From Candidatus Hydrogenedentota bacterium (GTDB lineage Bacteria; Hydrogenedentota; Hydrogenedentia; Hydrogenedentales; JAJRTN01), in assembly GCA_024278275.1 (NCBI GenBank), contig JAJRTN010000017.1, positions 1-64,000 of the forward strand: DNA of 64,000 bases, read 5' to 3'. Shown one piece after another: positions 4,409 to 58,240 of this stretch. The first letter of the stretch is position 1, and each line of letters opens with the position of its first letter. A program made the translations under genes and the position numbers. The notes under the pieces were generated by a model. The model did no database searches. It saw nothing but the letters and a program-made list of their open reading frames with translations, and was not told the origin of the DNA.

Positions 4409-4445
4409 GGCTGATTCTTTTCCATTGCTCTTGGCGGCCGCCGGT

Positions 4446-7403
4446 TTACCAACCCAGGGGCTTTTGCCAGGCTGCTTTCAACTCCGCCAGGGAGGCGTCC
4501 ACCTGGAGACCCTTTCGGCAGGTAATCCGCAATCGCTCGTCGTCCACCACGTCACCGATCCGGAACAAACCGTGGCCGTTGAGTTGCTGCTCGAAGGCTT
4601 CGCTTTTCCCCCGCGGCACGGTGACCACGAAACGGCTTTGGGATTCGCTGAAGAGGGCGGCGATACTGCTTTCCAATCCGAGGGGCGCGAGATCGAGTTT
4701 CATGCCGAAGCCACCGGCGAAAGCGCTTTCCGCCAGGGCCACGGCAAGGCCGCCGTCGGAGCAGTCATGACAGGAGGCCACGAGTCCCTCGGCGATGGCG
4801 CGGGACAGGGCGCTGTAGCGGGCGCGGGCGACCACCGGGTTGACCCTGGGCACGTTGACCCCGAGCTGGCCGTGCAGGGCGAGGTATTCGCTGCCGCCCA
4901 GCTCGTCCCGGGTCTCGCCCAGGACATAGACCGCGTCGCCGGGACGTTTCACGTCCATGGACACCACTTTCTCCACGTCGTCGATGATGGCGGCGGCGGT
5001 GAAGAGCACCGTGTGCGGAATGGAGATTCGCGTGCCGCCGATGCTGTAGTCGTTTTTCATGCTGTCCTTGCCGCTGATGAGAGGGATATCGTAGGCGGTA
5101 CAGACCTCGTACAGGGCCTCGCAGGTGCGCACCAGTTGGGCGAGTTTGTGCCGGCCGTCGGGCGTCTTTTCACTCTCCACGGGATCGGGCCAGCAGAAGT
5201 TGTCCAGCCCGGCGATGGCGCCCATTTTCGCGCCCACGGCGACGAGGTTCCGCACCGCCTCGTCGATGGAGCAGGCCATCATGTGGTAGGTGTCGATGTC
5301 GCTGTAGCGTGGCGTAATCCCGCAGGCCACGGCGATGCCCTTCCTCGAACCGGGCACGGGCCGGATGACCCCCGCGTTGCCGGGGCCGTCGTGGTCCGCG
5401 CCCTGGAAGGGCTTGAGGACGCTTTGCCCCTGCACTTCGTGGTCATACATGCGCACGAAGCTTTCCTTGCTCGCCACGTTGAGCGCGCCCAGGACCGCTT
5501 TAAGTTCCGCCGTGAGGTCCGTGTCTTCCACGATCACCTCGGGCCGGAGCGCGGGCGGCTCAATCTTCGCCTTCAGGCGCATCCGGGGCACGCCGTCGTG
5601 GAGGAAGTCCATGGAGAGGGAGGCGATCCGCTTGCCCTCGTGGAAGCACTCCAGGTACCCGCTGTCGGTGAATTCGCCCAGCACCGTGGCCTCCACCTCG
5701 CGCCGCGCGGCCAGGTCGAGAAAGGCGTCGATGTGTTCCGGAGGCACGGCGAAGCTCATCCGTTCCTGTGCCTCGGAGAGGAAAATCTCCCAGGGGGCGA
5801 GGCCGGGATACTTGAGGGGGGCCTTGTCCAGGTGAATCCGCGCGCCGCCGGGATCGCGGGCCATCTCGCCCAGGCTGGACGACAGTCCCCCCGCGCCGTT
5901 GTCGGTAATGCTGCTGTAGAGTCCCAGGTCACGCGCCTCGAAGAGGAAATCGGCCATCTTGCGCTGGGTAATGGGGTCGCCGATCTGCACGGCCGTGGCG
6001 GGCGATCCTTCGTGCAATTCCTCCGAGGAAAAGGTCGCGCCATGGATGCCGTCCTTGCCGATGCGGCCGCCCGTCATGACAATGAGGTCCCCGGGACGGG
6101 CTTCCTTGGTCTCGGTGGGTCGTCCGTTGATCGTCCGCGGGATGAGACCGCCCGTGCCGCAGAAGACGAGGGGTTTGCCCAGGAAACGCTCGTGGAAGAC
6201 GATGGCGCCGTTGATGGTGGGAATGCCGCTTTCGTTTCCGCCGTCCCGCACGCCCGCGTGGACCCCCCGCAGGACGCGGCGGGGATGGAGCAGGCGCTCG
6301 GGAATGGTTCCGTCGAAGTAGGGCGTGGCGAAGCAGAAAACATCGGTGTTGAAGATGCACTTGCAGCCCAGGCCCGCGCCCAGGATGTCGCGGTTTACCC
6401 CCACGATACCCGTCATGGCGCCGCCGTAGGGGTCCAGGGCGGAGGGACTGTTGTGGGTTTCCGCCTTGAGGGCGAAATTGAATTGCTCGTCAAAGCGGAT
6501 GATGCCCGCGTTGTCGTGAAAGACGCTTACCAGCCAGTCGATACGCTTCGCCACGTCGTCCGTGGCGCCCTTCACGAAGGTCTTGAAGAGGCCGTCGATG
6601 GTGCGCGTCTTTCCCTCGGCGTCGGTATATTCGATGAGGGCGGAAAAGATCTTGTGCTTGCAGTGCTCGGACCAGGTCTGGGCGATGATCTCCAGCTCAA
6701 TGTCCGTGGGGTGGGGGGGAAGTCCCGCCCCGCGCCGGTGCGCGGCCGTCGTTCCATCGCGGTAATGGTCCCGGATTGCCCTCATTTCGTCCACGTCGAG
6801 GGCCAGCGTCATTTCGCGGCTGAGCGCGGCAAGCGCCTCATCCGCCCGTTCCAGGTTAATCTCGTGGATCACCGGATCACTGCGGTCGGTGACGATGGGC
6901 AGATCGAGCAGGGGCGCGTCGCCGTGGACCCCCATCTCTTCGCGTGACTTGAGCGCCCACTGTTCGATGAGATCGTTGGCCAGGGCACGCCGGGCGATGC
7001 GCCGGGCCTCCGCCTCGTTGACCCCTTTCAGGGCGTACTGGGTGGACTTGTAGACCGCTTCGCCCTCGGCCAGCTTGCGGCCCAGCGTGTCCTGTATGCC
7101 CACCACCGAGCTTTTGCCCACGTTGTCCGTGACCCCGGGGCGAAAGCCCACCTCGATGAGATAGTCATAGTTCCGGGCGAGGGAGCGGTTCAACGCGGAT
7201 TCCTCGATGACCGGATCGGTGAACAACTCGACACGGACCCGCTCCAGTTCTTCCCCGGAAAGATCGGCGTTGATCGTGTAGACGTGGAGAATGCGGATGG
7301 CCTCGGCGCGAATCCCCAAATCTTCCGCCAGGCGGCTGGCCAGCGCGTCACCCGCCGGGTCGGGGCGGTCCGCCGGGATGGCCACTTCGATACGCTCAGC
7401 CAT
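4446..7403 (-). CDS. purL: Phosphoribosylformylglycinamidine synthase, synthetase subunit PurL with N-terminal PurS-like region
   Basis: 985 residues, much longer than the ~740-residue small PurL. The first ~180 residues (from RIEVAIPADRPDPAGDALA) look like a PurS-like domain plus linker. The synthetase core follows: PHPTDIELEIIAQTWSEHCK, FALKAETHNSPSALDPYGGA, a Gly-rich ATP site at DILGAGLGCKC, ITDNGAGGLSSSLGEMA and a second AIR-synthase-like half with SCHDCSDGGLAVALAE. It converts FGAR to FGAM using ATP and ammonia from PurQ. The start overlaps the end of purM by 8 bp, which suggests translational coupling. Confidence 0.96.
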   Translation of the reverse strand: MAERIEVAIPADRPDPAGDALASRLAEDLGIRAEAIRILHVYTINADLSGEELERVRVELFTDPVIEESALNRSLARNYDYLIEVGFRPGVTDNVGKSSVVGIQDTLGRKLAEGEAVYKSTQYALKGVNEAEARRIARRALANDLIEQWALKSREEMGVHGDAPLLDLPIVTDRSDPVIHEINLERADEALAALSREMTLALDVDEMRAIRDHYRDGTTAAHRRGAGLPPHPTDIELEIIAQTWSEHCKHKIFSALIEYTDAEGKTRTIDGLFKTFVKGATDDVAKRIDWLVSVFHDNAGIIRFDEQFNFALKAETHNSPSALDPYGGAMTGIVGVNRDILGAGLGCKCIFNTDVFCFATPYFDGTIPERLLHPRRVLRGVHAGVRDGGNESGIPTINGAIVFHERFLGKPLVFCGTGGLIPRTINGRPTETKEARPGDLIVMTGGRIGKDGIHGATFSSEELHEGSPATAVQIGDPITQRKMADFLFEARDLGLYSSITDNGAGGLSSSLGEMARDPGGARIHLDKAPLKYPGLAPWEIFLSEAQERMSFAVPPEHIDAFLDLAARREVEATVLGEFTDSGYLECFHEGKRIASLSMDFLHDGVPRMRLKAKIEPPALRPEVIVEDTDLTAELKAVLGALNVASKESFVRMYDHEVQGQSVLKPFQGADHDGPGNAGVIRPVPGSRKGIAVACGITPRYSDIDTYHMMACSIDEAVRNLVAVGAKMGAIAGLDNFCWPDPVESEKTPDGRHKLAQLVRTCEALYEVCTAYDIPLISGKDSMKNDYSIGGTRISIPHTVLFTAAAIIDDVEKVVSMDVKRPGDAVYVLGETRDELGGSEYLALHGQLGVNVPRVNPVVARARYSALSRAIAEGLVASCHDCSDGGLAVALAESAFAGGFGMKLDLAPLGLESSIAALFSESQSRFVVTVPRGKSEAFEQQLNGHGLFRIGDVVDDERLRITCRKGLQVDASLAELKAAWQKPLGW

Positions 7404-28260: not shown

Positions 28261-29076
28261 ATGGATGAACTTGCCTTTATCGAGACCTTTCTCCGGGAGA
28301 ACGCGGCGTATGTTCGAGAGCGCCATGCCGCGCGCAACCAGGTGACCATGACGGTGAAGTCGAATGCGAGCGACCTGCTGACGGAGGCGGATCTGACGGT
28401 GCAGCAGCGGGCCGTGGAGGCGCTGGCCAAGGCGTTTCCGGGCGACAGGCTCGTGGCGGAGGAGGGCGACTGCGCGGCCTATCCGGAAAATCGAAATGCC
28501 CGGTGCTGGGTGCTGGACCCCATCGATGGAACCAACAACTTTGTGCGGGGCCTGTTTCCGTGTTTCGGAATCTCCCTGGCCTTCGCCGAGGAGGGGGTTC
28601 CCCGGGCGGGCGGGGTCATGTTGCCCGTATCGGGGCACCTCTTTCTGGCGGAACGGGGCGGCGGCGCCACGCTGAACGGCGAAGCCATTCATGTTTCGGA
28701 TGTCCAGGACATTGGGGCGGCGAAGGTGGAGTTGGATTTCGGTTGGGTGGAAGAGCGCGATCTCATGCTGAATCGCGCGGCCAAGCTCATCAAGAGCGTG
28801 GGACAGGTTCGATGCACGGGCTCGGCCGTGGTCGCCCTGTGCCAGATCGCCTGCGGTGAAACGGACGGTTTTGCCCACATGACGCTCCAACCCTGGGATT
28901 ACGCGGCGTCGCAGGTGATTGTGGAGGAGGCGGGGGGCATGGCGACACGGTTGGACGGCAAAGCGCTGCACCTTTTCGATGGCAGGAAAGGCGTGCTCAT
29001 GAGCAACGGCGCCATTCACGGCACCATGCGGGGACTGATTCGGGAGCGGCGCGTGGCGCGGGATCAGCGCCGGTAG
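28261..29076 (+). CDS. Inositol monophosphatase family phosphatase
   Basis: 271 residues from the ATG at 28261, with GGGAG just upstream. Family motifs: SDLLTEADLTVQQRAVEAL, VAEEGD (metal-binding Glu), CWVLDPIDGTNNFVRGLFPC (the D-x-I-D-G-T core) and the C-terminal QPWDYAASQVIVEEAGG (metal-binding Asp). These are Mg2+-dependent, Li+-sensitive phosphatases acting on inositol phosphate, fructose-1,6-bisphosphate, PAP or histidinol phosphate; the substrate cannot be assigned. Its last 13 bp overlap the end of the convergent kinase gene. Confidence 0.94.
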   Translation: MDELAFIETFLRENAAYVRERHAARNQVTMTVKSNASDLLTEADLTVQQRAVEALAKAFPGDRLVAEEGDCAAYPENRNARCWVLDPIDGTNNFVRGLFPCFGISLAFAEEGVPRAGGVMLPVSGHLFLAERGGGATLNGEAIHVSDVQDIGAAKVELDFGWVEERDLMLNRAAKLIKSVGQVRCTGSAVVALCQIACGETDGFAHMTLQPWDYAASQVIVEEAGGMATRLDGKALHLFDGRKGVLMSNGAIHGTMRGLIRERRVARDQRR

Positions 29077-31820
29077 GAAAGACCGGCGCGGCCGTCCGTG
29101 GTTTCCGGGGTGACCTCAAGCACCTGGGAAGGCCGCGGTTGCGTTTCGATGATGGTGGTGGGGGTGGTGAGACCGAAGTTGATGTCGAGTTTGCTGGGGT
29201 AGACCAGCTCGATATAGAAGGCGGTATACCCCGTCTCCTCGGAGAGGATGGTGCCCTCATAGTAGCCTTCGGCGTTGTACGTAAGGCGCTCCATGCGCCA
29301 GGTGAGCGGTTCGGGTTCCTCGCCCGTGAACTCCGTTTCGGCCTCTCGGTAGCTGAAATCACGGGCCTTGGAATGGGCCAGCCACAGGCGGACCTCGACG
29401 GGCGGCTCTTCGGTCGTCACCTTGTAATGCCCGTCCTGCCCCACCTCCCAGGTGAAGGCCGGCATGGGCTTGCCCACCAGGATTCGATGGTAGAAGACCT
29501 GGAGCGTGTTCCGGAAGTCCTGTATCGCGTATTCCCGCGCACCAGCCGCCTGGGGCAGTTCCACGGGGCTGCCCTGTTGTGGGAGGAAGGGGTTGCCCCG
29601 GCTGAGGCGGAGGTTGGGCGCGCAGAAGAGGTAGTTTTCACCCTGAAGACCGTCCATGTAGAGGGTGGCCGCGTCGATGGTGGTGTAAGGATTGCTGCTG
29701 GAGGGCAATAGCAGCAGTTTGGGCATGGTGAGGAGATTGCGGTAGGCATAGGGGTCGATGATGCGCAGCAGTTGTTCACCCTGTTTCGTGTCGAGCGCGG
29801 CCAGGACGCCGCTTTCGCTCATGAGCGACATGAAGGGGGAGAGAGCGCCGCGGAAGCCAATCTGGTGTTCCGCCTGGCGGTTGATGTTGAGCAGGTCGAA
29901 CTGAATGGGGGCGATGGCCGCCACCCGTTTGTCCACGGCGCCGGTGAGCCACACGCCCCAGCCATCGGCCTCGCCCGTGAGTACGAAGGACTTGATGGGC
30001 GTTTCGAGAGACAGCTCCTTTTCGGTGAAGCCCTGCACCGTGTCCATGGCGCGGACGGCGCTTTTCACCAGCGGGCACACGATGGGCCAGGTGGGATCGC
30101 CCGTATCGAGGAAGCGGCTGAAACTTTCCACGGCCAGCCGGTTGCGATCCTGTGGGTCAAAGGCATTGGGATCGTCGTGAATGCCCACGGGATCACGGGG
30201 GTAACCTTCCAGCACGGCCACCACCGACCGCGTCGAAAGCGCCGTGGCCAGCAGCATGATGGGCACCTCGCTCAGCGGCCGCGTGGCGGTCGAGAATCCT
30301 TCCGAAAACGCCAGCATGGCCGTGTCTTGTGCCACGTTGTCCGGAACGATGATGGTAAGCCAGTGTTTCCACACGGGAGGGGAAACCTTGTCGGCGTGCC
30401 AGGTCTGGGAGGTCATGTCGAGAACATAGGCCGTGTAGCCTTCATCCTCGATGATGCTGTTTTGACGGTAGCTGTAATTGTCGTCCTCCGCCGTCACGTA
30501 ATCCTTGAGTGGTGTCGCGCTGAGCAGACCACCGACGGTGATGGCTTCCCGGTCGCCGGAGCCTCCGCCCTGGTACATCCAATACCCCAAGGCAAGGCAC
30601 AGCACCATCACCACCGTGGCAAGTCCAATCCACGGAAACATGGGGCGACGATGCGGCGTGAAACCTTTTTCCGGGACCTCCGGCTCGTCCCGTGGCACGG
30701 GTTGAGGCATGGGCGAAGGTGTTTGGAGTAGCATGGGGGCCGGTGTCGGCGTCGTCGGACCCGGCGGTAAGGAGGGGGGCGTCACGCCGGAAGGCCGTGT
30801 CATGCCCATGGGTGTGGGGGTTGCCGTGCGTAGCGGGCCGGGGCCGGGAGCCGGCGTTGGGGAAGCCGGGGCCGCAGGAACCGGCGTCATCGGCGTGGAA
30901 GGGGTGTGGGTGTGGGGCGCCGACAAGGCCACCGTGTCCGAATTGGCGGGATCGTTAATGTCGGATGCGTTCGGCGCGCATTGTTCCAGGGCCAGGCGGC
31001 GCAAGGCTTCCGCCAGTTCCAGGCCCGACGCGGGCCGCTGGTCGATGTGTTTGGCGAGGCATTGCATGACCACCCGCTCAAGATCCAGCGGCAGGGAAGG
31101 GCGAAGAAGACGGACCGGTGTGGGGGGAGTGTCCGTGTGATGCCGCAGCAGGGCCAGGTAGTTCTCCGCCTCGAAGGGAAGACTGCCCGAGACCATCTCG
31201 TAAATGATGACCCCCAAGGAGTAAAGGTCGGACTGGGGCACCGCTTCGTAGCCCTGGCACTGTTCGGGCGACATGTAGGCGGGGGTGCCCAGCACGCAGT
31301 TCTCCCCCGTGAGTGGTGTCAGCGACGTGTCCACCAGGCGGGCGAGGCTGAAGTCCGTCAGTTTTACGTGCCCATGCTGGTCCAGCATGACATTGCCCGG
31401 CTTCACGTCCCGGTGAATGATGCCCTCTTTGTGCGCGGCGTACAGGGTCTCGGCAATATCGGCGGCAATGAAAAGCTTCTGCTGAAGGCTGAGTTCGGGA
31501 TGGTCCCGCAGGTATTGGCCGAGGGTGGAGCCCTGGATATACTCCATGACGATGGCCATGCGGTCCTTTTCTTCCACCACGTCATAGATTTGGACAATGC
31601 CGGGGTGGTTCAGGCGCGCGGCGCTGCGGGCCTCCCGCACGAAGCGTGCCGCGTGATCCGCCTCCATGGCATGATAACCGTGAAGGAGCTTGATGGCCAC
31701 ATCCCGCTCGAGACGGGGATCAAAAGCCAGGAAAACCGCCCCAAAGCCTCCTTCCGCGATCTTGTGACGGACCTGGTAGTGTCCAATCTGGACGATATCG
31801 TTCTCCGATGGGTGCGGCAC
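29064..31820 (-). CDS. Membrane Ser/Thr protein kinase fused to a PhoPQ-activated-protein (PqaA)-like domain
   Basis: 918 residues. Residues ~14-275 form a Hanks-type kinase: GGFGAVFLAFD glycine loop, VAIK Lys, an alphaC Glu in FVREARSAARLNHPG, catalytic loop HRDVKPGNVML, a DFS in place of DFG, GTPAYMSPEQ and SDLYSLGVIIYEM. A Pro/Thr-rich juxtamembrane stretch (~300-390) precedes one membrane helix (~394-415, WIGLATVVMVLCLALGYWMY). Residues ~430-880 resemble PhoPQ-activated pathogenicity-related proteins (VKSAVRAMDTVQGF, VAAIAPIQFDLLNI, IIDPYAYRNLLTMPKLLL), predicted to be outside the cytoplasm. The nucleophile motif GASKRGW of that family appears as GEADGW, so the domain may be a non-catalytic sensor. 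Confidence 0.9.
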   Translation of the reverse strand: MPHPSENDIVQIGHYQVRHKIAEGGFGAVFLAFDPRLERDVAIKLLHGYHAMEADHAARFVREARSAARLNHPGIVQIYDVVEEKDRMAIVMEYIQGSTLGQYLRDHPELSLQQKLFIAADIAETLYAAHKEGIIHRDVKPGNVMLDQHGHVKLTDFSLARLVDTSLTPLTGENCVLGTPAYMSPEQCQGYEAVPQSDLYSLGVIIYEMVSGSLPFEAENYLALLRHHTDTPPTPVRLLRPSLPLDLERVVMQCLAKHIDQRPASGLELAEALRRLALEQCAPNASDINDPANSDTVALSAPHTHTPSTPMTPVPAAPASPTPAPGPGPLRTATPTPMGMTRPSGVTPPSLPPGPTTPTPAPMLLQTPSPMPQPVPRDEPEVPEKGFTPHRRPMFPWIGLATVVMVLCLALGYWMYQGGGSGDREAITVGGLLSATPLKDYVTAEDDNYSYRQNSIIEDEGYTAYVLDMTSQTWHADKVSPPVWKHWLTIIVPDNVAQDTAMLAFSEGFSTATRPLSEVPIMLLATALSTRSVVAVLEGYPRDPVGIHDDPNAFDPQDRNRLAVESFSRFLDTGDPTWPIVCPLVKSAVRAMDTVQGFTEKELSLETPIKSFVLTGEADGWGVWLTGAVDKRVAAIAPIQFDLLNINRQAEHQIGFRGALSPFMSLMSESGVLAALDTKQGEQLLRIIDPYAYRNLLTMPKLLLLPSSSNPYTTIDAATLYMDGLQGENYLFCAPNLRLSRGNPFLPQQGSPVELPQAAGAREYAIQDFRNTLQVFYHRILVGKPMPAFTWEVGQDGHYKVTTEEPPVEVRLWLAHSKARDFSYREAETEFTGEEPEPLTWRMERLTYNAEGYYEGTILSEETGYTAFYIELVYPSKLDINFGLTTPTTIIETQPRPSQVLEVTPETTDGRAGLSYRR

Positions 31821-47372: not shown

Positions 47373-48179
47373 GTGGGGAAGGTTCCGGGCAGGTATCTTG
47401 AGCGTCCCATCTGGGCGACCATGGAGCGTGACGACAGCGAAGCCATGCGTTACCGCGTTGCCTGCGCGGAGCGGGGACGTCCGCTGTCGGAAAACGACGG
47501 CCGTATCGCGGCGCTGAAGGATGTGCATCGGGGTCGGACGGCGTGGCTGCTGGGCAACGGTCCCAGTGTGCGCGTGGCGGACCTGGAACGGCTTTCCGGG
47601 CGTGTAAGTTTCGGCTGTAACCGGCTTTACCTGGCCTACCCGGACATGCGCTTCCGGCCGACCTACCTCTGTTCCACGGACCTTCAGATGATTCGCGATT
47701 TCGGGAAAGAGATGCTGGAAGCCCATCCGGGCAAGGTACTCTTCGTCTCGGAAACGCCGCCGGACCTGGAGGGGGATTTCGTCTGGTTCCCCTGGGGCAG
47801 CCGCACGCCGCTGGAGTTTTCCGACAATGTGTATGATTTCGTCATGCCGGGGGGTGGCACGCTGATCACGGCCATCCAAATCGGCTTTTACATGGGTATT
47901 ACCCGGTTTTATATCTACGGCATGGATCACAACTTTGTTTACCGGACCAACGAAGCCACGGACGACCATTACGCGAAGGCGGAAGGCGACGGCAACCATT
48001 TCATCAAGAATTACCGTTCCGGCAAGGCCTGGGCGCCGCCGGTGCTGTGGCAGGTGGAAGGGGCCTTGCTCAGCGCGCACCTTTTCTTACAGTCCCACGG
48101 CGGCTGGCTCAGAAACGCAACGCGGGGGGGAAAACTCGAGGTGCTCGAACGGGTGGATTTTGATGATGTGGTGGGTTGA
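47373..48179 (+). CDS. MptE/DUF115-like protein, possible glycosyltransferase
   Basis: 268 residues from a GTG at 47373, with AAGGGAG about 10 bp upstream. The nucleotide-binding-like motif is RTAWLLGNGPSVRVADLERL near residue 55, followed by SFGCNRLYLAYPDMRFRPTY. The second half has GGTLITAIQIGFYMGITRFY, IYGMDHNFVY and an end motif LRNATRGGKLEVLERVDFDD. The same motifs recur in the C-terminal half of the protein at 56219. The family covers MptE-like and Maf (DUF115) proteins and resembles GT42-type transferases. First of five same-strand genes. Confidence 0.8.
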   Translation: MGKVPGRYLERPIWATMERDDSEAMRYRVACAERGRPLSENDGRIAALKDVHRGRTAWLLGNGPSVRVADLERLSGRVSFGCNRLYLAYPDMRFRPTYLCSTDLQMIRDFGKEMLEAHPGKVLFVSETPPDLEGDFVWFPWGSRTPLEFSDNVYDFVMPGGGTLITAIQIGFYMGITRFYIYGMDHNFVYRTNEATDDHYAKAEGDGNHFIKNYRSGKAWAPPVLWQVEGALLSAHLFLQSHGGWLRNATRGGKLEVLERVDFDDVVG

Positions 48180-48236
48180 ACGACCCGGTCGCCCCGTCGG
48201 GCCATTTCGCCCCGCCTCGCCATGGAGTAAAAGTTG

Positions 48237-50093
48237 ATGCAGTCCATTTCGGTCGTAATCCCCACACATAACCGGCTGCCCGTGTTACTGGAGGCGTTGC
48301 GCTGCCTCGCGGGGGGCAGCGAGATGCCCGACGAGGTTATTGTGGTCGATGACGGTTCGGAGGAGCCGGTACAGCCGGCGGTGGAGGCGGCCGATTTCGG
48401 CTTTCCCTCGCTCCGGGTCATCCGCTTTTCGCCGGGCCGGGGCGCTCCGGTGGCGCGCAACGAAGGGGCGCGTGCGAGTACGGGCGATATTGTTGTCTTC
48501 ATGGATGACGATCTGCTGCCGGATGTGAACATGGTGCGCTACCACCGGCGGATTCATGAAGCCCATCCCGCGCCGAATTACGGGGTCATGGCGCGCATCT
48601 ATTTCGATCCCGACCTGCCGCGCACGCCCCTCATGCACTACATCGAGGAATACGGCTATTTCACGGCGGTCAGCAAAGATCCTGACCGCACCCCCGTGCT
48701 GGACGGGTTGATCAGTGCCAATTTTTCCATGAAGCGGGCCTTCATGGAGGGGCGAAGCAAGCTCTTCGACGAGAACTTTCCTCACAACCGCAACGAGGAT
48801 ACGGAGTTCGGGGTGCGCATGGTGGCCGAGGGCTGGGACCTGCACTATCACATCGCGCCGAGCAGCCGCCATCATTCCCCCCTGGACCTGGATACCTTTT
48901 TCAGGCAGGTGCGCCAGGGCGGCTTCTCCAAGGCCTATTGGTCCCTCGCCGCGCCCGATGATACGGGCTTTTGCCTTTGCCTGGGAGAATGCGCGAAACG
49001 CAAGCTGCGGGAAGTCGAGATTACCGCGCTCATCGGGCAATACCGCGAGGCCTTCGGGGAAGCGCTTATCACCGGCGACATGGACCACTGTTCCCCGGTC
49101 GAGTTCGACAACTTCCGTTTCTTTGTCCGCAATGCCATGGCCTGGGTGCAGGATATTGGCCAGATGGATGGCTGGTGCGAGCGGGTTCCCGTCGTGCGGG
49201 ACATGCTGGATGACTTGGCGGAAGCCTTCGATGCGAAAGACACGGATGAACGGTTGACCCACCTCACGCGCGCCCATGACCGGGATCCCGCGTTCCTGCC
49301 CATGGCCGTGCTGCTGAGCGATGAACTGGGCGGGGCGGGTTACCTGGAGGAGGCCCGAAAGGCCCTGGTCCCGGTTGCCGGCAGCCTGTGGGTGAAGCTT
49401 CGCATGGCCGAACTTGCCGAAGCATTGGGCGACCTTGAGACCTGTTGGCGCAACGCACGCATGGTTTACGACGGCACCGCGGGCGGCAATGGCGTCCAGT
49501 GGGAACAACGCCGCCGGGCGTCGGAAATCCTCACGCGGCTGGAGGCCACGGACTGTTTCGACATTGCGTGGGCGAGAAGCGTTTGGACGGCGCTGGGCGC
49601 GCGCGATTTTACCTACAACCGCCAGTGGGTCTACACGCTTCACCGTGCGTTGAAACGCCGCGGCCTGTTGCCGGAGAACGAAACCGTGTCGGGCCTGTTG
49701 GAGCGAATGAGCGGCATTCACACCTGCAACAAGGTGTTGAAGGCTTTAAACGGGGCCGCGGAATACAAGGCGCCGCAACGGATAACGCCGTCGGTCACGC
49801 CGCCACCGCCGCTTCGTCCCGAACGGGCCGTGGACAAGGTGATTGGCAAACGCCTGGCGGGCGAGGTGACCTGGTTCACCCCGGAGAAGCGTTTCGGCTT
49901 TGTCCGCATGGACGGCACGGATCTTATTGCCTTTGTTCACTACCGGCACGTGAAAGTGCCCCGGTTTGCGTACTTTGAGCCCGGGCAACGGCTCACGTTC
50001 ACGGTTCACGAAACGACTATTGGACTGGAAGCGCGGGACATACGCCCCGAAGAAGGCCCTGAATCCAATGGCAATGCCGGACCCACCGCGTGA
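48237..50093 (+). CDS. GT2 glycosyltransferase with TPR-like middle and C-terminal cold-shock domain
   Basis: 618 residues. The ATG at 48237 is favoured over a TTG three bases before. GT-A fold of family 2: ISVVIPTHNRLPVLLEALRC, EVIVVDDGS, PVARNEGARAS, IVVFMDDDLLPD (D-D-D) and HNRNEDTEFGVRMVAEGW (E-D). A helical, TPR-like stretch covers ~330-480. Residues 538-604 form a cold-shock domain: AGEVTWFTPEKRFGFVRM (RNP1-like) and LIAFVHYRHVKVPRFAYFEP (RNP2-like). A nucleic-acid-binding domain on a glycosyltransferase is unusual; here it may have been adapted to bind something else. The next gene starts within 27 bp. Confidence 0.9.
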   Translation: MQSISVVIPTHNRLPVLLEALRCLAGGSEMPDEVIVVDDGSEEPVQPAVEAADFGFPSLRVIRFSPGRGAPVARNEGARASTGDIVVFMDDDLLPDVNMVRYHRRIHEAHPAPNYGVMARIYFDPDLPRTPLMHYIEEYGYFTAVSKDPDRTPVLDGLISANFSMKRAFMEGRSKLFDENFPHNRNEDTEFGVRMVAEGWDLHYHIAPSSRHHSPLDLDTFFRQVRQGGFSKAYWSLAAPDDTGFCLCLGECAKRKLREVEITALIGQYREAFGEALITGDMDHCSPVEFDNFRFFVRNAMAWVQDIGQMDGWCERVPVVRDMLDDLAEAFDAKDTDERLTHLTRAHDRDPAFLPMAVLLSDELGGAGYLEEARKALVPVAGSLWVKLRMAELAEALGDLETCWRNARMVYDGTAGGNGVQWEQRRRASEILTRLEATDCFDIAWARSVWTALGARDFTYNRQWVYTLHRALKRRGLLPENETVSGLLERMSGIHTCNKVLKALNGAAEYKAPQRITPSVTPPPPLRPERAVDKVIGKRLAGEVTWFTPEKRFGFVRMDGTDLIAFVHYRHVKVPRFAYFEPGQRLTFTVHETTIGLEARDIRPEEGPESNGNAGPTA

Positions 50094-50119
50094 AGGCGCG
50101 GGAAAACGGGGAGAGGCCG

Positions 50120-53100
50120 ATGATGAGTATTGCGAAAGGGCTGCGGAAGTTTGCCGTGGCCGTGATTATGTCCAACAAGATTACCCGGGGCATACAGCGC
50201 CGTATCGCGCTCGATGACGCCTGCCTGGAGAGCCTCTTCACCCACACTTTGTTCCCCCGTCGTCTCACGCAAAACGATTCGCTCTGGGACGTATTCGTCC
50301 GTACCGTGCGCGGTCCCCTCGTGTTCCTGAGACTTTTCCGCGCCCTTTGCGCCGACGACCGCGCGGCCGAACATGCGCTGGAAGACCGGCGTTTTCTCGC
50401 GCGCCTGCTGCGCCTGTTGCCTCGCAGGCTGCGGGAAGATGAAGCACTGTGGAAGGCCTTTACCGGGCTGTTAATGACGCCGGGGTTGTTTCTCAAGTTG
50501 TTCCGCCTCTTCTGTGCCGACGACCGCGCGGCGGGGCATGCCCTGGAGGACCGGCGTTTTCTCATCCGCGTGATGAGCCTGTTGCCCCGGCGGCTCAGGG
50601 AGGACGAATCTCTCTGGGACGCCTTCATGGGGATGGTGATGAAGTCCACCCTGTATACGCGGGTGCTTCGTGCGCTGTTGAAAGATGACCGCGCGCTGGA
50701 CTGCATCCTCGACGACCGGGAACTGGTGGAACGAATCGCGGGCAGCCAGCGTTTCGAGGAAATTGTTTTCGGGCTGGAGCCGAGAGCCTTCGGCCCGGCG
50801 GACCTGTCCTCCACCGGGAAAAACCTGGCCGCGAAGCTGGCGGAATCCCCCCACCTGCTTCCACGATTGGCGTGTTCTCCCCGTGCTGCCGAGGCCCTGC
50901 TCAACGAACCCGGCCTGCTCGCGCTGGCGCGTTTGCTGGAGACCGACCGGGCCGTGGATCTCATCTGCACCGAGGAGGACGTGCTGCGCCGGGTACTGGC
51001 GAATCCCGCGGCCCTGGAGGCGTTGACCGATGATCCGGCGTTGCTGTTGCCCTTCCTGAAGTCGAACCCTCTTTTCAACGCCATCCTGCAGCATCGTCCC
51101 TTGCTTCAGCGCATCGTCAACAGCGGAAAGGCGCGCGAGCGCATTGTGAGAACACCAAAACTGGTCGAAGCCCTGGTCGCCACCCCCGCTTTTACAAAGG
51201 CCCTGGTGAAAGTGCCGGAAGCACTGCACCGCGTACTGTCCAGCCCGGTCGCGCTGGATACCCTGGTGGGTGACGATGCGTTGCTGGAACGGGTGCTGAG
51301 CCGCCCGGACCTGCCGCCGAAGGTGCTGGCCCACGGGGCGTTGTCCGAGCGTTTGGCGGGCGATGATCGGCTCCTGGACCTGGTCGTCGCCCGGGAGGAT
51401 TTCCCCGCGCGCCTGGCCGAGCGGGCCGACGCGGCCCTGTGGCGGAGCCTGCTGTCGCCCGATTCCGTGATGGCGGCGTTGGCGGCCAACGCCGATTATG
51501 TCAAGCGTCTTGCGGCTCAACCGGCGGCCCATGCGACACTCACCGGCAACATTCCCTTTATGAAACGGGTTCTGGCGGAGGGCCAGGTTTTTGGCCTTTT
51601 GCTGAACGATGATGAACTGCTCGACCGGTTGGTGAAACACGAACGGACCCGGGATCGTATCACGGAGAACCGGGTCCTCTTGCGCCGGTTGGTCACGGGA
51701 ACAGCGGGCGTGCAGGAGGCCCTGTCTGAGCGGGCACACCTGCTTCGCCTGCTGGACACCAAGGCGGCCCGGGACGCGCTGGCCAACACGCCGGACCTGC
51801 TCCAGGGATTGCTGGGCGATTTGGCGGTCTTCGCGCGCCTGGCGGAAGATGATGACTTCGTGAAGCGCATCGCGAAGGATGATCGCGCGGTTCAAACCCT
51901 TTCGGGCAACGTGCCCTTCGTGCGCCGGCTCCTGGGCGAAGCGAAGGCTTTTGGTGTCGTACTCAATGATCCCGAGATCCTTGCCCCCATTCTCAGGCAC
52001 CCCAAGGCCGTGTCGGCGCTCCTCGCGGACCAGCCATTGTTGCGCGATCTGTTGCGGCGCGAACCGGTGAGTGCCGTTCTCCTCAGTGACGGGGAAAGAC
52101 TGCATCAACTGCTGGACACCCGGGAAGTTCGCGGTCTGCTGGCGAACACGCCCGACCTGCTCGAACGGATCTTGAACGATGACGGTGTTTTCGGGCGCAT
52201 CGCCGAGAACGGCAAACTGATGAAGCGCCTGGTCAAGGAATCCGCCGTGGTGGACACCTTGGCCGGAACACCCTCTTTTGTACGGGTCTTCCTCGAAGAG
52301 GACCGCGTTTTCGGCGCCCTCCTCAACAGCGAGACCATCCTCGGGCGCGTGGTTCGGCACGCCAAGGCGGGTGAGGTCATCCGGTCGGCCAAACCGCTCC
52401 TGAAGTCGATCACCGAGAGTGACGCGGGCGTGGCGGCCATCCTCGACAACACCGATCTGCTTACCCGCCTGACCGACAGTCCTCCTCTGCGGAAGCACCT
52501 GGCGCGACAGCCTGAATTGTTGGCCCGGTTGTTCCGTGACAGCGAGGTGTTCCCGGTGATCGCGGCGGATACGGCGTTTGTCAAGCGCCTCGCCAAGGAG
52601 GACACCGCCCTGGCGGTCCTGGCGGAAAACGTGCCCTTCCTGCAACGTCTGCTGCGGGAAGACCGGGCGTTCGGCGTGATGCTCAACGAGCCGGAGGTTC
52701 TTGGCCGCGTGGTGCGTCACGAACGTGCGCTCGAATGGATCGAGCAGGACCCCGCGCTGCTTTGCCGCATTGCCACGGGGGATGCCGGGCTGGCGGTTGT
52801 TCTTTCCAGCGTGCCCGCCATGACCCGGATTCTCGAAGCCCCTTCGCTCCGGGCCTGTCTCGCGGCGCAACCGGATTTGTTGATTGGACTGGTGAATGAG
52901 CAGGCCGTGTTCGCCACGTTGACCGGCCGGCCCGACTTCGTGAAACGGCTGGCTAAGGAAAAGGCTTCGCTGACCGCGCTGGCTGGAAACGTGCCTTTCC
53001 TGCGCCTTCTGCTGAACGAGGACAAGGCCTTTGGAACCCTGCTCAACGAACCGGAGATCCTCGGGCGGGTGTTGCGCCACGAAAAGACGCTGGCCTGCCT

Positions 53101-55999
53101 GGAAGACGATCCCGGTCTGCTGCGCGCCATCGTGGGCCGCCCGGCGGCCCGCGCGGCCCTGCTGTCCAGTCCGGCAGGCCTGGCGGAACTGCTCGATACC
53201 GAGCCGGTGCGGACGCATCTCGCGGGTCAACCGGCGCTGTTGTTGAAGACGGTGGGGGACGCGGCGGTATTTCATGTACTGTCCGGGGATGCCGATTTCG
53301 TGAAACGTTTGGCAAAGGCGGAGACCGCGCTGGCCACGCTGGCGGAGAACCCGCCCTTCCTGCGCCTTCTGCTGAACGAGGACAAGGCCTTTGGAACCCT
53401 GCTCAACGACGCGGAGACCCTGGGCCGGTTGCTGCGTCACGAAAAGACGCTGGCCTATTTGGAAGGCGATCTGGGCCTGCTGCGCGCCGTCGTGGGCAGT
53501 CCGGCGGGCCGGACGGCGCTGCTCTCCAGCCCGTCGGTCCTGGCGGAACTGCTTGACACCGAGCCGGTGCGGACGCTTCTCGCGGGTCAACCGGCGCTGC
53601 TGTTGAAGACGGTGGGGGACGCTGCGGTATTCCGTGTATTGTCTGGTGATGGAGACTTTGTGAAACGTTTGGCGAAAGCGGAGACGGCGCTGGCCACGCT
53701 TGCGGAGAACCCGCCCTTCCTTCGCCAGTTGCTGGCGCAGGACCGGGCTTTCGGGACCGTGCTCAACGATGCGGAGACCCTGGGCCGGTTGCTGCGTCAC
53801 GAAAAGACGCTGGCGTATTTGGAAGGCGACCTGGGCCTGCTGCGCGCCATCGTGGGCAGTCCGGCGGGCCGGACGGCGTTGCTTTCCAGCCCGTCGGTCC
53901 TGGCGGAACTGCTCGACACCGAGCCGGTGCGGACGCTTCTCGCGGGTCAACCGGCGCTGCTGTTGAAGACGGTGGGGGACGCCGCGGTATTCCGTGTATT
54001 GTCCGGTGATGGTGACTTTGTGAAACGTTTGGCGAAAGCGGAGACCGCGCTGGCCACACTGTCGGGCAATCCGCCCTTTGTTCGTCAACTCCTGGCGCAA
54101 GATCGGGCTTTTGGAGTCGTGCTCAACGAAGCGGAGATCCTGGGGCGGGTGCTCAATCATGAACGGGCACGGACGGCCATCGCGGAGCAGGGCGCGTTGC
54201 TGCGGCGAATCGTCGAGGACGAGCGGGCCACCGCGACCCTGCTCAACGACGCGGCCTGGCTCACGGGCGTCATGCGTTCCGCCCAGGTGCTTCGTTTACT
54301 CGCCGGCGCGCCTGATCTTCTTTTGCGCTTGACCAATGACAACGATCTTTTCCGCCTCCTCATGGGCGACGACGGTTTCGTGAAACGCCTCATGCGGGAC
54401 GATCACCTTGTGAGCGTGGCCGCCGGCGACGCCATCTTCGCGTACAAGTTCCTGGGACAGGTGGACATTGTCGGGCGCATAGCCCGGGAACCCATGATCG
54501 TGGGGGCGCTGCTCTCGGATAAGACCTTCCACGAATCCGCCACCCGGGACAAACGTTTCATCCGCCGTTTCGCCTCCCACGGCGATGTTTTCGAGGCGCT
54601 TATGAGCAACGGCGATTTCCGCCGTAGGGCGGGCGCAGACCGGCGGATGCTGGCGCAGTTGCTCGCCACGCCCGCCAGTGTGAAGGCGCTGGTGAGTGAC
54701 GACCGTGCCATCGATTTCGTCGTGGGACAACCCGCGGCCTTCGTGAAAACCGTTACGGGTCGGGGGCGCCTGTCGAAGCTCTGTGGCGAACAGGGCCTGT
54801 TGGCCCGCCTTCTGGGCCACGAGGGCGTGCGCCACCGTATTGCCCGGGAGAATGCCCTGTTGGGACCCCTCGTGAGCGACACCCGGCTCTGCGATGCCAT
54901 CGCCGAAACGCCAGTCTTCCGGGGCCGCCTGTTTGAGAACGAGCGGGTCATGGACAGCATCGTCACGGACGGCCGGTTGCTTCGCCACGAAAGCGTGCGC
55001 AACCACTTGCGCGCCACCCTGGCCTTCAGCCGCGCTTTCGAGTCGCTTCGTCCCTATCTGCCCGCCGACCTGCCCGATTTGCCCCAACGCATCAGCAAGG
55101 CGCGGGCCAAGCTCGACGACGATAAGGGTGTGCCCGAGGCCATCCTTAAGGTGATGTGCGACCGAAACACGGTGGTGCTCGCGCCGAAGCCCTTGCGTTT
55201 CCCCGACAAGGAGGCGCTCTGGACCTGTATGCAGGAAATCCTCATGGCGGAGGAGTACTACTTCGAGGCCGAAAGCGACACGCCCCGCATCCTCGATTGC
55301 GGCGCGAACTTCGGCCTGGCCGTCCACTACTTCAAGCGCCTCTACCCCAAGGCCCGTATCACCGCCTTCGAACCCATCCCGCGTATCCGCCGCATGACGA
55401 AAAAGAACATGGCGGACAGTGGCTACGGGGATGTGGAAATCCTGCCCTACGCCTTGTCCGACCAGGCGGGCAAGGCACGGTTTCTTGTGTCGAAAACCTA
55501 TGCGCTGGCCGGTTCGCTCACGGAGCGCCGCAAAGAGGCGGGGGACGCGGTAGAAGAGATCGTGGTGCAGTGCCGCACCCTCGGCGCTTTCCTCGAAGAG
55601 CCGGTGGACTACCTGAAACTGGATATCGAGGGAAGCGAGGACGTGGTGCTGGCCGAGGCACGGCCCCTCCTGGGTAACGTGCAGCACATCTTCTGCGAGT
55701 ACCATCACGGCAGTGGTTTGGCCACCGACCGGTTGGCCCGCATCCTGGATCTGCTGGACGAGGAGGGCTTTGACTGCCACGTGAGCAAGTCGGTCACTTT
55801 CTCCCAATCCTCGGCCCGGCGTCCCATGAACTTCGTGCGCCGCCCTTATTCCGCCGTCCTGTGGGCCAAGGCGCGGGACTGGACGGAAGGCCGGCGGCGA
55901 GCCGCCGCCTTTCTGGCGAAACAAGGCAAGGCGGCCGAGGCTAAGCGTGCCCCGAAAGCAAAAGCAAAGACGAAGAGAACGAACAAAGTAAAGGTGTAG
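50120..55999 (+). CDS. Giant leucine-rich helical-repeat protein with C-terminal FkbM methyltransferase
   Basis: 1,959 residues from ATG 50120 (ATG 50123 equally possible; GGGGAGAGG at 50108). A GTG at 50090 would overlap the GT2 stop. N-terminal part: 55-residue repeats (LEDRRFLARLLRLLPRRL type) over residues ~30-220. Middle: ~24-residue helical repeats to about residue 1,630, grouped by five into a 120-residue unit; GDFVKRLAKAETALATL-like anchors occur every 120 residues nine times from residue 459. C-terminal ~1,720-1,900: FkbM methyltransferase, with ILDCGANFGLAVHYFKRLYP (SAM motif), ITAFEPIPRIRRMTKKNM and VDYLKLDIEGSEDVVLAEA. The tail is Lys-rich (APKAKAKTKRTNKVKV). No signal peptide or membrane segment. 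Likely a cytosolic alpha-solenoid scaffold carrying an O-methyltransferase for a glycan. Confidence 0.93.
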   Translation: MMSIAKGLRKFAVAVIMSNKITRGIQRRIALDDACLESLFTHTLFPRRLTQNDSLWDVFVRTVRGPLVFLRLFRALCADDRAAEHALEDRRFLARLLRLLPRRLREDEALWKAFTGLLMTPGLFLKLFRLFCADDRAAGHALEDRRFLIRVMSLLPRRLREDESLWDAFMGMVMKSTLYTRVLRALLKDDRALDCILDDRELVERIAGSQRFEEIVFGLEPRAFGPADLSSTGKNLAAKLAESPHLLPRLACSPRAAEALLNEPGLLALARLLETDRAVDLICTEEDVLRRVLANPAALEALTDDPALLLPFLKSNPLFNAILQHRPLLQRIVNSGKARERIVRTPKLVEALVATPAFTKALVKVPEALHRVLSSPVALDTLVGDDALLERVLSRPDLPPKVLAHGALSERLAGDDRLLDLVVAREDFPARLAERADAALWRSLLSPDSVMAALAANADYVKRLAAQPAAHATLTGNIPFMKRVLAEGQVFGLLLNDDELLDRLVKHERTRDRITENRVLLRRLVTGTAGVQEALSERAHLLRLLDTKAARDALANTPDLLQGLLGDLAVFARLAEDDDFVKRIAKDDRAVQTLSGNVPFVRRLLGEAKAFGVVLNDPEILAPILRHPKAVSALLADQPLLRDLLRREPVSAVLLSDGERLHQLLDTREVRGLLANTPDLLERILNDDGVFGRIAENGKLMKRLVKESAVVDTLAGTPSFVRVFLEEDRVFGALLNSETILGRVVRHAKAGEVIRSAKPLLKSITESDAGVAAILDNTDLLTRLTDSPPLRKHLARQPELLARLFRDSEVFPVIAADTAFVKRLAKEDTALAVLAENVPFLQRLLREDRAFGVMLNEPEVLGRVVRHERALEWIEQDPALLCRIATGDAGLAVVLSSVPAMTRILEAPSLRACLAAQPDLLIGLVNEQAVFATLTGRPDFVKRLAKEKASLTALAGNVPFLRLLLNEDKAFGTLLNEPEILGRVLRHEKTLACLEDDPGLLRAIVGRPAARAALLSSPAGLAELLDTEPVRTHLAGQPALLLKTVGDAAVFHVLSGDADFVKRLAKAETALATLAENPPFLRLLLNEDKAFGTLLNDAETLGRLLRHEKTLAYLEGDLGLLRAVVGSPAGRTALLSSPSVLAELLDTEPVRTLLAGQPALLLKTVGDAAVFRVLSGDGDFVKRLAKAETALATLAENPPFLRQLLAQDRAFGTVLNDAETLGRLLRHEKTLAYLEGDLGLLRAIVGSPAGRTALLSSPSVLAELLDTEPVRTLLAGQPALLLKTVGDAAVFRVLSGDGDFVKRLAKAETALATLSGNPPFVRQLLAQDRAFGVVLNEAEILGRVLNHERARTAIAEQGALLRRIVEDERATATLLNDAAWLTGVMRSAQVLRLLAGAPDLLLRLTNDNDLFRLLMGDDGFVKRLMRDDHLVSVAAGDAIFAYKFLGQVDIVGRIAREPMIVGALLSDKTFHESATRDKRFIRRFASHGDVFEALMSNGDFRRRAGADRRMLAQLLATPASVKALVSDDRAIDFVVGQPAAFVKTVTGRGRLSKLCGEQGLLARLLGHEGVRHRIARENALLGPLVSDTRLCDAIAETPVFRGRLFENERVMDSIVTDGRLLRHESVRNHLRATLAFSRAFESLRPYLPADLPDLPQRISKARAKLDDDKGVPEAILKVMCDRNTVVLAPKPLRFPDKEALWTCMQEILMAEEYYFEAESDTPRILDCGANFGLAVHYFKRLYPKARITAFEPIPRIRRMTKKNMADSGYGDVEILPYALSDQAGKARFLVSKTYALAGSLTERRKEAGDAVEEIVVQCRTLGAFLEEPVDYLKLDIEGSEDVVLAEARPLLGNVQHIFCEYHHGSGLATDRLARILDLLDEEGFDCHVSKSVTFSQSSARRPMNFVRRPYSAVLWAKARDWTEGRRRAAAFLAKQGKAAEAKRAPKAKAKTKRTNKVKV
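50213..50780 (+). repeat. 165-bp (55-codon) tandem repeats
   Basis: The codons for ADDRAAEHALEDRR start at 50351, those for ADDRAAGHALEDRR at 50516 and those for KDDRALDCILDDRE at 50681, exactly 165 bp apart. LPRRL/LW-A/D-F units show the same spacing. A degenerate copy precedes at about 50213. In frame throughout. Confidence 0.85.
51420..54500 (+). repeat. 360-bp (120-codon) tandem repeats, nine copies in exact register
   Basis: The anchor codons of the (D/G)-x-F-V-K-R motif fall at 51494, 51854, 52214, 52574, 52934, 53294, 53654, 54014 and 54374: eight intervals of exactly 360 bp with no indel. Each unit holds five 24-codon subrepeats. Copies at ~53300-54100 are nearly identical in DNA, implying recent duplication or gene conversion, while the outer copies are diverged. 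Confidence 0.92.
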
Positions 56000-56000
56000 C

Positions 56001-56044
56001 CTCGCGGTGCGCGGTGGCCGGGGACGGCCACCCCATCGCGCGAG
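56001..56044 (+). terminator. Long hairpin after the giant gene
   Basis: Inner stem GGTGGCCG-GGGA-CGGCCACC (56013-56032) inside outer arms CTCGCG (56001) and CGCGAG (56039-56044). There is no U tract, so it may attenuate rather than stop transcription into the next gene, 175 bp on. The rest of the 219-bp gap shows nothing else. Confidence 0.5.
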
Positions 56045-56218
56045 ACGGATGTAAAGCTGTCCGGGGGGCGTCTCCGGGCACCGTGAGGCCGTGAATGACT
56101 GTGTAAAACGAAAGGCCCAAAATGTTTCCCCGCCGCCCCGTGGTGGCGCGTGGGTTGAAGGACATAGGATCTGTTCGCGGCGGCGTGGGCGGAGTGGGGC
56201 GGGAAAGGTGTAGTGTTT

Positions 56219-58240
56219 ATGCACATTGTATCGACCATGGACGATGTTGGTGTCGGCGAGTACCTGACCCTGGTGCGCAGCATCCGCGCCCACGGCGGTG
56301 GCATACCCCGCCTTAAAGTTATCGCGTTGACCGGTAATGTGACGGCGGACTCGATGAAACGGGTGCGGCAGGTGGCGGATGAAACCCGTCCCTTCGCGAC
56401 CTTTGCGTCTTACAGGCGTTACGACGCCTTCGGCGATGGCCTGGGGCATCCCCTGGGTAAGTTCGCCAAGCTGTTTTTCGCGCTGGAGTATTTCAACGAG
56501 AACACGCCGGATGACGAAATGGTCATGTTTCTCGACCCGGATGTTTACGTGCAGCGGCCCCTCCGGCAGTTCGTCAAGTTCCTGGATGACGACGCGCTGC
56601 TTTTCGGTCACGAAATCCAGCATTCTCACCACATGGCCAGGCCCAACGCACGCCTGAAAGTGGCGCACTATTTCGATGATCCCGGCGGCTGGTGGGCCAC
56701 CTATGTGACCGAAATTAACACGGGGGTCATTCTCGGCCGGGCGGCCACCTTCAAGCGGATCATGGGAGACTTCGAGAACTTCGTTCTCAAGTCGGACTAC
56801 TTCAAAAAGGCCATGCCCCGTGCCGGGGGCGCCCGCTGGCACGACCAGGATTTCTTCCGCTATTTCTACCGCAAGACCATGCGTACCGACATTGGCGTGC
56901 TCGACCTGGAGCAGATCTTTACCACTACCCGGGGCGCGGCGAAATGCCTTTACTTCGATATGAAGCGCAACCAGTACCGTACCGTCTGGGGGGCCACGCC
57001 CTTCGTAGTCCATTTCGCCGGGGGCACCCTCGGCAAGATTCCCCGCAAGCCTCCCGTGGACGAGACGCCCGCGCCCACACCCCCCGTGCTTTCCGCGGCG
57101 CCCGCCACCACGCACCACCTCGCCTACGTGGCGCAAGCGGATGACCCGGTGCTGGAGCACTGGATCGCCCGGCTGCCGCGCGACGAGAAGGTGTCCCTCC
57201 TTGTCGCGCCCGACGCAGGCGACACCGACGACCTCCAACGGCGTTACGAGGGTGTGTCACGGTCCTACGCGCTGGCCCATCCCCCGGAAGACGACGCGTC
57301 CCTGGATCAACTCAAGGCTGTCATGAGGGAAGTGCGTCCCCACGACGTGGTCCTGCCGTCGGGTCTCGATGCGCGGGAGATCGAGTTCCTGCCCGGTTAC
57401 CGCATGCCCGACCTGCGCCCGCTCTACCCGGCCGTGCGCGGCCTGTGGCGCGCGGGCGCGCGTCGCTTCCGCCTGCGCACCTTCGCGGGCTCCGTCGATA
57501 TGGACATTCCCTGGCTGCTCGACGGCCTGGTGAACCGCCACCAGGGCAAGCGCTGCTTTGTCGTCGGCAACGGTCCCAGCCTTAACGACCTGGACATGGG
57601 GTTGTTGAAGAACGAGATTACTTTCGGCTCCAATCGCTGCTACATGGGCTACGAACAGTGGGGCTACGGGTTTACCTATTGGGGGTGCATGGATCGTTTA
57701 CAGGTGGAGAAGTACGCCCTGGAATACGAACGAAACGTGCCTGAAGACTGTATCAAGCTCTTTCCCTTCGAATACATGCCGCTGTTTCGCTTCAAAAACG
57801 CCTGCCCCGTGAACCTTAACTACGAGTGGCGGCCCCCCTACCGTTTTTCCGGCACGCCCGGAGAATTGTTTCTCGGCTTTACCGTGACCCACATGCTGCT
57901 CCAGACGGCCGTGATCATGGGGTGCAATCCCATCTATCTCATCGGCGTGGATCACCGTTACAACCTGTCCAGCGCCCCCGAGAAGAAGCGAAAGATCGGC
58001 AAGTCCAACGCCGAACTATGGGTCGCCGGCGACGCTGCCAAACCGACCCATTTCACCAGCCAATACACCGGTGGCGCGCCCAAGGAGTTCGTCAAGCCCC
58101 GTCCCGAACGGGCCGAGGCCTGTTTCGAGGTTGCCAACACCTGGGTTCGGGACCATAGCCTGAAAATCCTCAACGCCACGCCCGGCACCGCCCTCACGGC
58201 CTTTCCCCTGGTGGATTTCAACAGTCTTTTCCCAAAGTGA
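56219..58240 (+). CDS. GT8-like glycosyltransferase fused to an MptE/DUF115-like domain
   Basis: 673 residues; ATG 56219 (a GTG at 56213 is possible) after GGGAAAGG. N-terminal ~1-280: GT-A fold of nucleotide-diphospho-sugar transferase type, with FALEYFNENTPDDEMVMFLD then PDVYVQRPL (D-x-D-like motif DPD), INTGVILGRAATF and RWHDQDFFRYFYRKTM. A variable middle of ~150 residues follows. From ~440: KRCFVVGNGPSLNDLDMGLL, TFGSNRCYMGYEQWGYGFTY, FTVTHMLLQTAVIMGCNPIY, LIGVDHRYNL and NATPGTALTAFPLVDFNSLF, the same family as the gene at 47373. A bifunctional glycan-assembly protein is the likely role. Confidence 0.85.
   Translation: MHIVSTMDDVGVGEYLTLVRSIRAHGGGIPRLKVIALTGNVTADSMKRVRQVADETRPFATFASYRRYDAFGDGLGHPLGKFAKLFFALEYFNENTPDDEMVMFLDPDVYVQRPLRQFVKFLDDDALLFGHEIQHSHHMARPNARLKVAHYFDDPGGWWATYVTEINTGVILGRAATFKRIMGDFENFVLKSDYFKKAMPRAGGARWHDQDFFRYFYRKTMRTDIGVLDLEQIFTTTRGAAKCLYFDMKRNQYRTVWGATPFVVHFAGGTLGKIPRKPPVDETPAPTPPVLSAAPATTHHLAYVAQADDPVLEHWIARLPRDEKVSLLVAPDAGDTDDLQRRYEGVSRSYALAHPPEDDASLDQLKAVMREVRPHDVVLPSGLDAREIEFLPGYRMPDLRPLYPAVRGLWRAGARRFRLRTFAGSVDMDIPWLLDGLVNRHQGKRCFVVGNGPSLNDLDMGLLKNEITFGSNRCYMGYEQWGYGFTYWGCMDRLQVEKYALEYERNVPEDCIKLFPFEYMPLFRFKNACPVNLNYEWRPPYRFSGTPGELFLGFTVTHMLLQTAVIMGCNPIYLIGVDHRYNLSSAPEKKRKIGKSNAELWVAGDAAKPTHFTSQYTGGAPKEFVKPRPERAEACFEVANTWVRDHSLKILNATPGTALTAFPLVDFNSLFPK

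Follow-up and report, generated by a model that had tools for sequence, protein, structure and literature searches.

Organization of the locus

The window (the whole stretch of DNA analyzed, 64,000 nucleotides) comes from a metagenome-assembled genome (MAG) of Candidatus Hydrogenedentota and carries a gene for a predicted solenoid-FkbM methyltransferase, whose parts and neighbors are listed in Table 1. A GTG at 50090 lies in frame with the ATG start. The MptE-like proteins encoded on the two sides of the gene showed identities of 27.6% (47373..48179) and 31.6% (675-aa protein) to the neighbor of the Maricaulis relative described below. The cold-shock-like domain of the upstream GT2 protein (PF00313, E 5e-9) is an unusual fusion. 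Two antisense ORFs, at 50471-54160 (-, 1,229 aa) and 54296-57238 (-, 980 aa), were judged to be shadow ORFs lying opposite a repetitive gene of high GC content, because the plus frame carries the domain and the conserved relatives. Elsewhere, the product of a gene at 29064-31820 (-) combines a Ser/Thr protein kinase domain with a domain of the PhoPQ-activated pathogenicity-related type (PF10142). Rfam and tRNA features were absent from the window.

Table 1. Coordinates of the solenoid-FkbM gene, its segments, and its neighbors in the window
Feature	Position	Strand	Remarks
MptE-like (DUF115-type) protein, possible glycosyltransferase	47373..48179	+	weak Pfam match
GT2 glycosyltransferase with C-terminal cold-shock-like domain	48234..50093	+	26 bp upstream of ATG 50120
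GGGGAGAGG, Shine-Dalgarno-like	50108..50116	+	ahead of ATG 50120; read from sequence
Solenoid-FkbM methyltransferase gene (predicted)	50120 (ATG)..55999 (stop)	+	1,959 aa
Basic hydrophobic segment, residues 1-31	50120..50212	+	no D/E, 7 K/R
55-aa helical repeats, residues ~40-215	50237..50764	+	~3 copies; autocorrelation peak at lag 55
10/20-aa short-helix repeat solenoid (predicted), residues ~240-1634	50837..55020	+
Fifty 20-aa units in register, residues 441-1440	51440..54439	+	120-aa superperiod
360-bp DNA tandem array	52932..54153	+	3.4 copies, 87% matches
Conserved catalytic module (linker + FkbM)	55004..55894	+	41-51% identity across phylum
FkbM domain PF05050	55295..55774	+	DCGANFG and LKLDIEGSE motifs
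Lys/Arg-rich C-terminal tail	55895..55996	+
675-aa protein, MptE-like C-terminal half	56213..58240	+	PF01973, E 9e-11

The C-terminal FkbM domain

The original prediction described a giant protein ending in an FkbM domain, and this description was borne out. PF05050 matched residues 1726-1885 with an E of 1e-15 and 58.7 bits (Pfam cut-off, 22.7), and TIGR01444 gave an E of 3e-23 and 82.7 bits (NCBIfam cut-off, 37.7). The FkbM part of the AlphaFold2 model had pLDDT values mostly >90, and Foldseek paired the C-terminus with the FkbM structure 2py6, pointing to a SAM-binding Rossmann-type methyltransferase fold. By profile and predicted fold, the window protein is an FkbM methyltransferase, with its activity predicted. 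It has the domain, motifs, and predicted fold in common with FkbM methyltransferases (PF05050, 2py6), but these are usually ~200-300 aa long and have no solenoid body, whereas the window protein has one. The predicted Lys-rich tail is also present; a shorter version was found in another genome of the phylum (G007), and the tail was missing from most relatives.

Sequence and predicted structure of the repeat body

BLOSUM autocorrelation of residues 1-1640 gave peaks at lags of 20, 40, 60, 120, and 240, with scores of +1.35 at lag 120 and +0.25 at lag 20, compared with -0.65 for the best lag in 20 shuffles. The 50 successive 20-residue units in register contain no indel and have a consensus of approximately LRRLLxDDRAFxALLxDPxL; 77 repeat-profile windows scored >8 bits in the protein and none did so in five shuffles. 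The 55-aa repeat comes first and is followed by the 10/20-aa repeats with their 120-aa superperiod, which become more degenerate past residue 1440 and lead into the FkbM module. Thus, the body that was originally described as almost wholly Leu-rich helical repeats does appear to be a helical solenoid, but it is not uniform, as seen in the separate 55-aa repeat class and the basic N-terminal segment.

At the DNA level, the copies encoding residues 1041-1160 and 1161-1280 are 90% identical; the central copies are the closest, and identity drops outward. The 360-bp array represents the most recent expansion of the repeats. Because the central copies are most alike and all exact DNA repeats in the window gene are shorter than 100 bp, the pattern fits stepwise in-frame duplication better than assembly collapse. 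Within the phylum, the 20-aa repeat profile matched only this gene, in the window genome (G000) and in G007; it is therefore not a repeat that is widespread in the lineage.

Pfam searches of the window protein for ARM, HEAT, TPR, and LRV repeats gave no match at E values up to 1, and PDB sequence searches with the repeats returned only 7qlr, as a weak match (E 0.004). The AlphaFold2 model of residues 760-1959 placed one 8-9-residue helix in every 10 residues throughout the repeats, with pLDDT mostly 50-75, and a second model of residues 801-1160 contained 36 short helices in 360 aa, with a mean pLDDT of 71. The structures nearest to the repeat model in Foldseek were 7qlr and armadillo (beta-catenin) solenoids (probability 1.00, TM-scores <0.5). 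The functions of these best fold matches, the CDHS-1 phage receptor-binding protein (7qlr) and armadillo proteins, are unrelated, and the helices of armadillo repeats are longer than those in the window repeats. The unbroken run of short helices supports, at moderate confidence, the proposed continuous alpha-solenoid as a class of fold and not an exact curvature or length.

The suggested cytosolic location of the protein held up. By hydrophobic moment, the N-terminal helix was not statistically distinct from the repeats; the N-terminus is basic and acid-free in most family members, which hints at a possible in-plane membrane anchor at residues 1-31.

Relatives with the same catalytic module

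A contig scan with the window protein alone gave no match, and an alignment query recovered the relatives. Of the 68 genomes of the phylum, 11 carried the catalytic module, at ~40-51% identity and always preceded by Leu-rich helical repeats. Homologs with the same FkbM C-terminus behind differing repeats, for which the original prediction had proposed a search, do therefore exist: among phylum members, the bodies of complete genes ranged from 193 to 1,628 aa, compared with a constant module, and repeat periods were 10/20 (G000, G007), 12/24/48 (G002, G026, G037), or 23 (G015, G038, G057) residues. The G007 homolog is split inside its repeats over contigs C151 and C497 (L041, L043); the complete protein probably has ~1,000 or more residues. 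The G001 gene is also split between contigs inside the repeats.

In the isolate Maricaulis salignorans, the same catalytic module belongs to a protein of 1,060 aa whose repeats are 46 aa long. At the threshold used, this module was found in only 1 of 137 genomes of the Maricaulis family. The bodies of the relatives in Kiritimatiellae and Desulfobacterales are TPR-like, and the form encoded by a Pirellulales MAG is only 365 aa long. The distribution of the module is patchy, as is that of glycan loci in general.

Association with the Wzm/Wzt exporter

The gene adjoins wzt in G001, G002, G015, G026, G034, G038, and G057 and wzm in G007, so that wzm-wzt linkage with a cap-binding Wzt domain was observed in 8 of the 11 phylum genomes, not including the window's own contig. 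In G015 and G057, the ends of the genes overlap. In the neighboring Wzt proteins, an ABC ATPase is joined to a Wzt_C-type domain at the C-terminus, which scored above the curated cut-off in some and below it in others. The gene order was TPR/transglutaminase gene, wzm, wzt, solenoid-FkbM in G034 and wzt, solenoid-FkbM, GT4-like, unknown, dual GT2 in G015. The dual-GT2 protein of the latter cluster, a 60% homolog of which adjoins wzm in G007, is a candidate for the polymerase. Beyond the phylum, wzt adjoins the Pirellulales gene (L048), and in Maricaulis (L050) wzm-wzt lies 7 kb away and includes the only Wzt_C match of that genome.

Wzt_C was present in all 11 genomes with the gene, versus 13 of 57 without it (P = 1.6e-6, Fisher test, which ignores phylogeny). 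Six of the 11 genomes encode no FkbM protein other than the solenoid one. The 11 genomes hold six further FkbM matches, each on a contig that lacks Wzt_C. In the window genome, the solenoid-FkbM gene is on contig C128, and wzm-wzt-wzt genes belonging to the same subfamily are on C22; this separation is the main gap in the argument. The gene is likewise not linked to wzm-wzt in G014 and G037. At the C22 locus (L234, G000:C22:25836-29501), a single wzm is followed by two wzt genes in tandem.

The Wzt of Aquifex binds 3-O-methyl sugars at the chain end; Trp362 forms a lid over the pocket for the methyl group, and His350 makes contact with the sugar (PMC9445017). A profile of twelve partner-type Wzt proteins aligned with Aquifex Wzt (8dku), including the cap-binding domain, at a weak 26.5 bits. 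The Trp362 column held W, Y, or F in 11 of the 12 proteins, and the His350 column held H in 8. Because the alignment is weak, these residues support cap binding by the partner Wzt in kind and do not amount to proof.

A proposed chain terminator with a solenoid spacer

Known terminators carry the capping enzyme on the distal tip of a coiled coil, which at its opposite end meets the membrane and the polymerase. The length of the coil determines that of the glycan, and export is restricted to capped chains (PMC11231755, PMC3482155). The rulers described are coiled coils, the characteristic marker of capped ABC-exported glycans (PMC11231755), which counts against the reading proposed here. We propose, with a probability of roughly 0.55, that the window protein is a chain-terminating methyltransferase with a role analogous to that of WbdD, in which a solenoid takes the place of the coiled-coil ruler. 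The capping role, predicted from gene context, is likely. A ruler role of the solenoid is plausible, at somewhat less than even odds. More tentatively still, an expandable alpha-solenoid of 10-12-residue short-helix units may act as the ruler, with repeat gain and loss setting the length of the exported polysaccharide. The original prediction had offered either a scaffold or a molecular ruler; the gene context, in which relatives of the gene lie beside a wzm-wzt pair whose Wzt has a cap-binding domain, favors a ruler or terminator. We infer that the protein methylates the terminal and not an internal sugar, that it is anchored at the membrane, and that it acts as a ruler of chain length.

Under this proposal, the protein would sit in the cytoplasm, probably at the membrane edge, and serve an ABC-transporter-dependent surface glycan. 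The FkbM module would O-methylate the nonreducing end of the growing lipid-linked chain, and this methyl cap would halt elongation. The C-terminal domain of Wzt would then recognize the cap, and the chain would enter the Wzm/Wzt exporter. The N-terminal solenoid would space the capping site from the membrane and the polymerase, so that only chains above a minimum length would be capped. The domain order would be opposite to that of WbdD, with the anchor end N-terminal and the enzyme C-terminal.

WbdD of E. coli O8/O9a and K. pneumoniae O3/O5 also combines a methyltransferase with an elongated spacer and works with wzm-wzt, a C-terminal cap-binding domain of Wzt, and ABC-dependent glycan assembly, the same setting as in the relatives (PMC3482155, PMC11231755). 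In contrast to WbdD, the window protein has a solenoid, a spacer-then-enzyme order, and an FkbM-type methyltransferase, and no kinase domain was found in it. PDB sequence searches with the module or its profile returned no chain at an E of 0.01, WbdD chains included, and short helices of a predicted solenoid were found where WbdD has its coiled-coil ruler. Because a coiled coil and sequence homology were both looked for and not found, we propose that the protein works like WbdD, not that it is a WbdD. Another terminator, ORF7 (GT137) of K. pneumoniae O4, includes a TPR-like helical bundle (PMC11231755) but differs in that its cap is added by a glycosyltransferase (Kdo) and a coiled coil is also present. 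Few papers link FkbM with ABC-exported glycans, and FkbM control of O-polysaccharide length in Ochrobactrum was asserted without proof (PMC10888714).

Among the proteins compared here, the window protein would then be the longest of the proposed solenoid-terminator family. If the proposal is true, a solenoid ruler would show that one type of spacer can replace another and that length can evolve through mere duplication of repeats, and a function would be assigned to a large uncharacterized protein of an uncultured phylum. The cultured relative, Maricaulis salignorans DSM 16077, makes the hypothesis directly testable.

Alternative explanations

The solenoid could instead serve for docking and bring Wzm/Wzt together with the flanking glycosyltransferases, with FkbM methylating the chain and exerting no length control. 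Partner binding is common among long solenoids, the window gene is flanked by genes for a GT2 and two MptE-like proteins, and the TPR-like bodies of the Kiritimatiellae and Desulfobacterales relatives would suit such a role. However, the shortest bodies are ~190 aa and repeat types vary widely, which leaves the family without one conserved docking surface, and capping better explains the link to cap-binding Wzt; we consider a scaffold without length control unlikely. Because WbdD also recruits its polymerase, scaffolding may belong to the same function as chain termination.

It is similarly improbable that FkbM caps chains for Wzt while the repeat number is neutral or serves only attachment to the membrane or partners. 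V. cholerae RfbT, a methyltransferase with no repeat body, modifies the terminal sugar of an O antigen made by an ABC-type pathway. Its profile, PF05575, had no match in the window protein in the Pfam search but weakly matched two relatives, those of Maricaulis and G015 (E 1.9e-5 and 2.8e-4). In addition, the short Pirellulales form nevertheless adjoins wzt. Against termination without a ruler, all 11 Hydrogenedentota members and Maricaulis have repeat bodies.

A ubiquilin/STI1-like binder of hydrophobic clients, or chaperone, fused to FkbM is very improbable. PF23195 (Ubiquilin-1-like; cut-off, 27 bits) did score 65 bits across the full length of the window protein and 31.7 bits in G007, but this match reflects the many short NP/DP-capped leucine helices and was missing from the other relatives tested. 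UBL and UBA domains were not found, and ubiquilin identity was rejected on this architecture. Near-identical tandem repeats can misassemble in MAGs, and the G001 and G007 genes are broken within theirs, but an assembly or gene-calling artifact, including the joining of two genes that was raised originally, is hardly credible because the same module stands behind repeat bodies in 11 genomes and an isolate and the window gene is free of long exact repeats.

Among viral sequences, annotated phage records contained no relatives of the FkbM module. One IMG/VR record of viral class (L144), within which no wzt was found, encodes at 3909-5789 an FkbM relative whose body looks like a coiled coil and which may form a bridge to rulers of that type.
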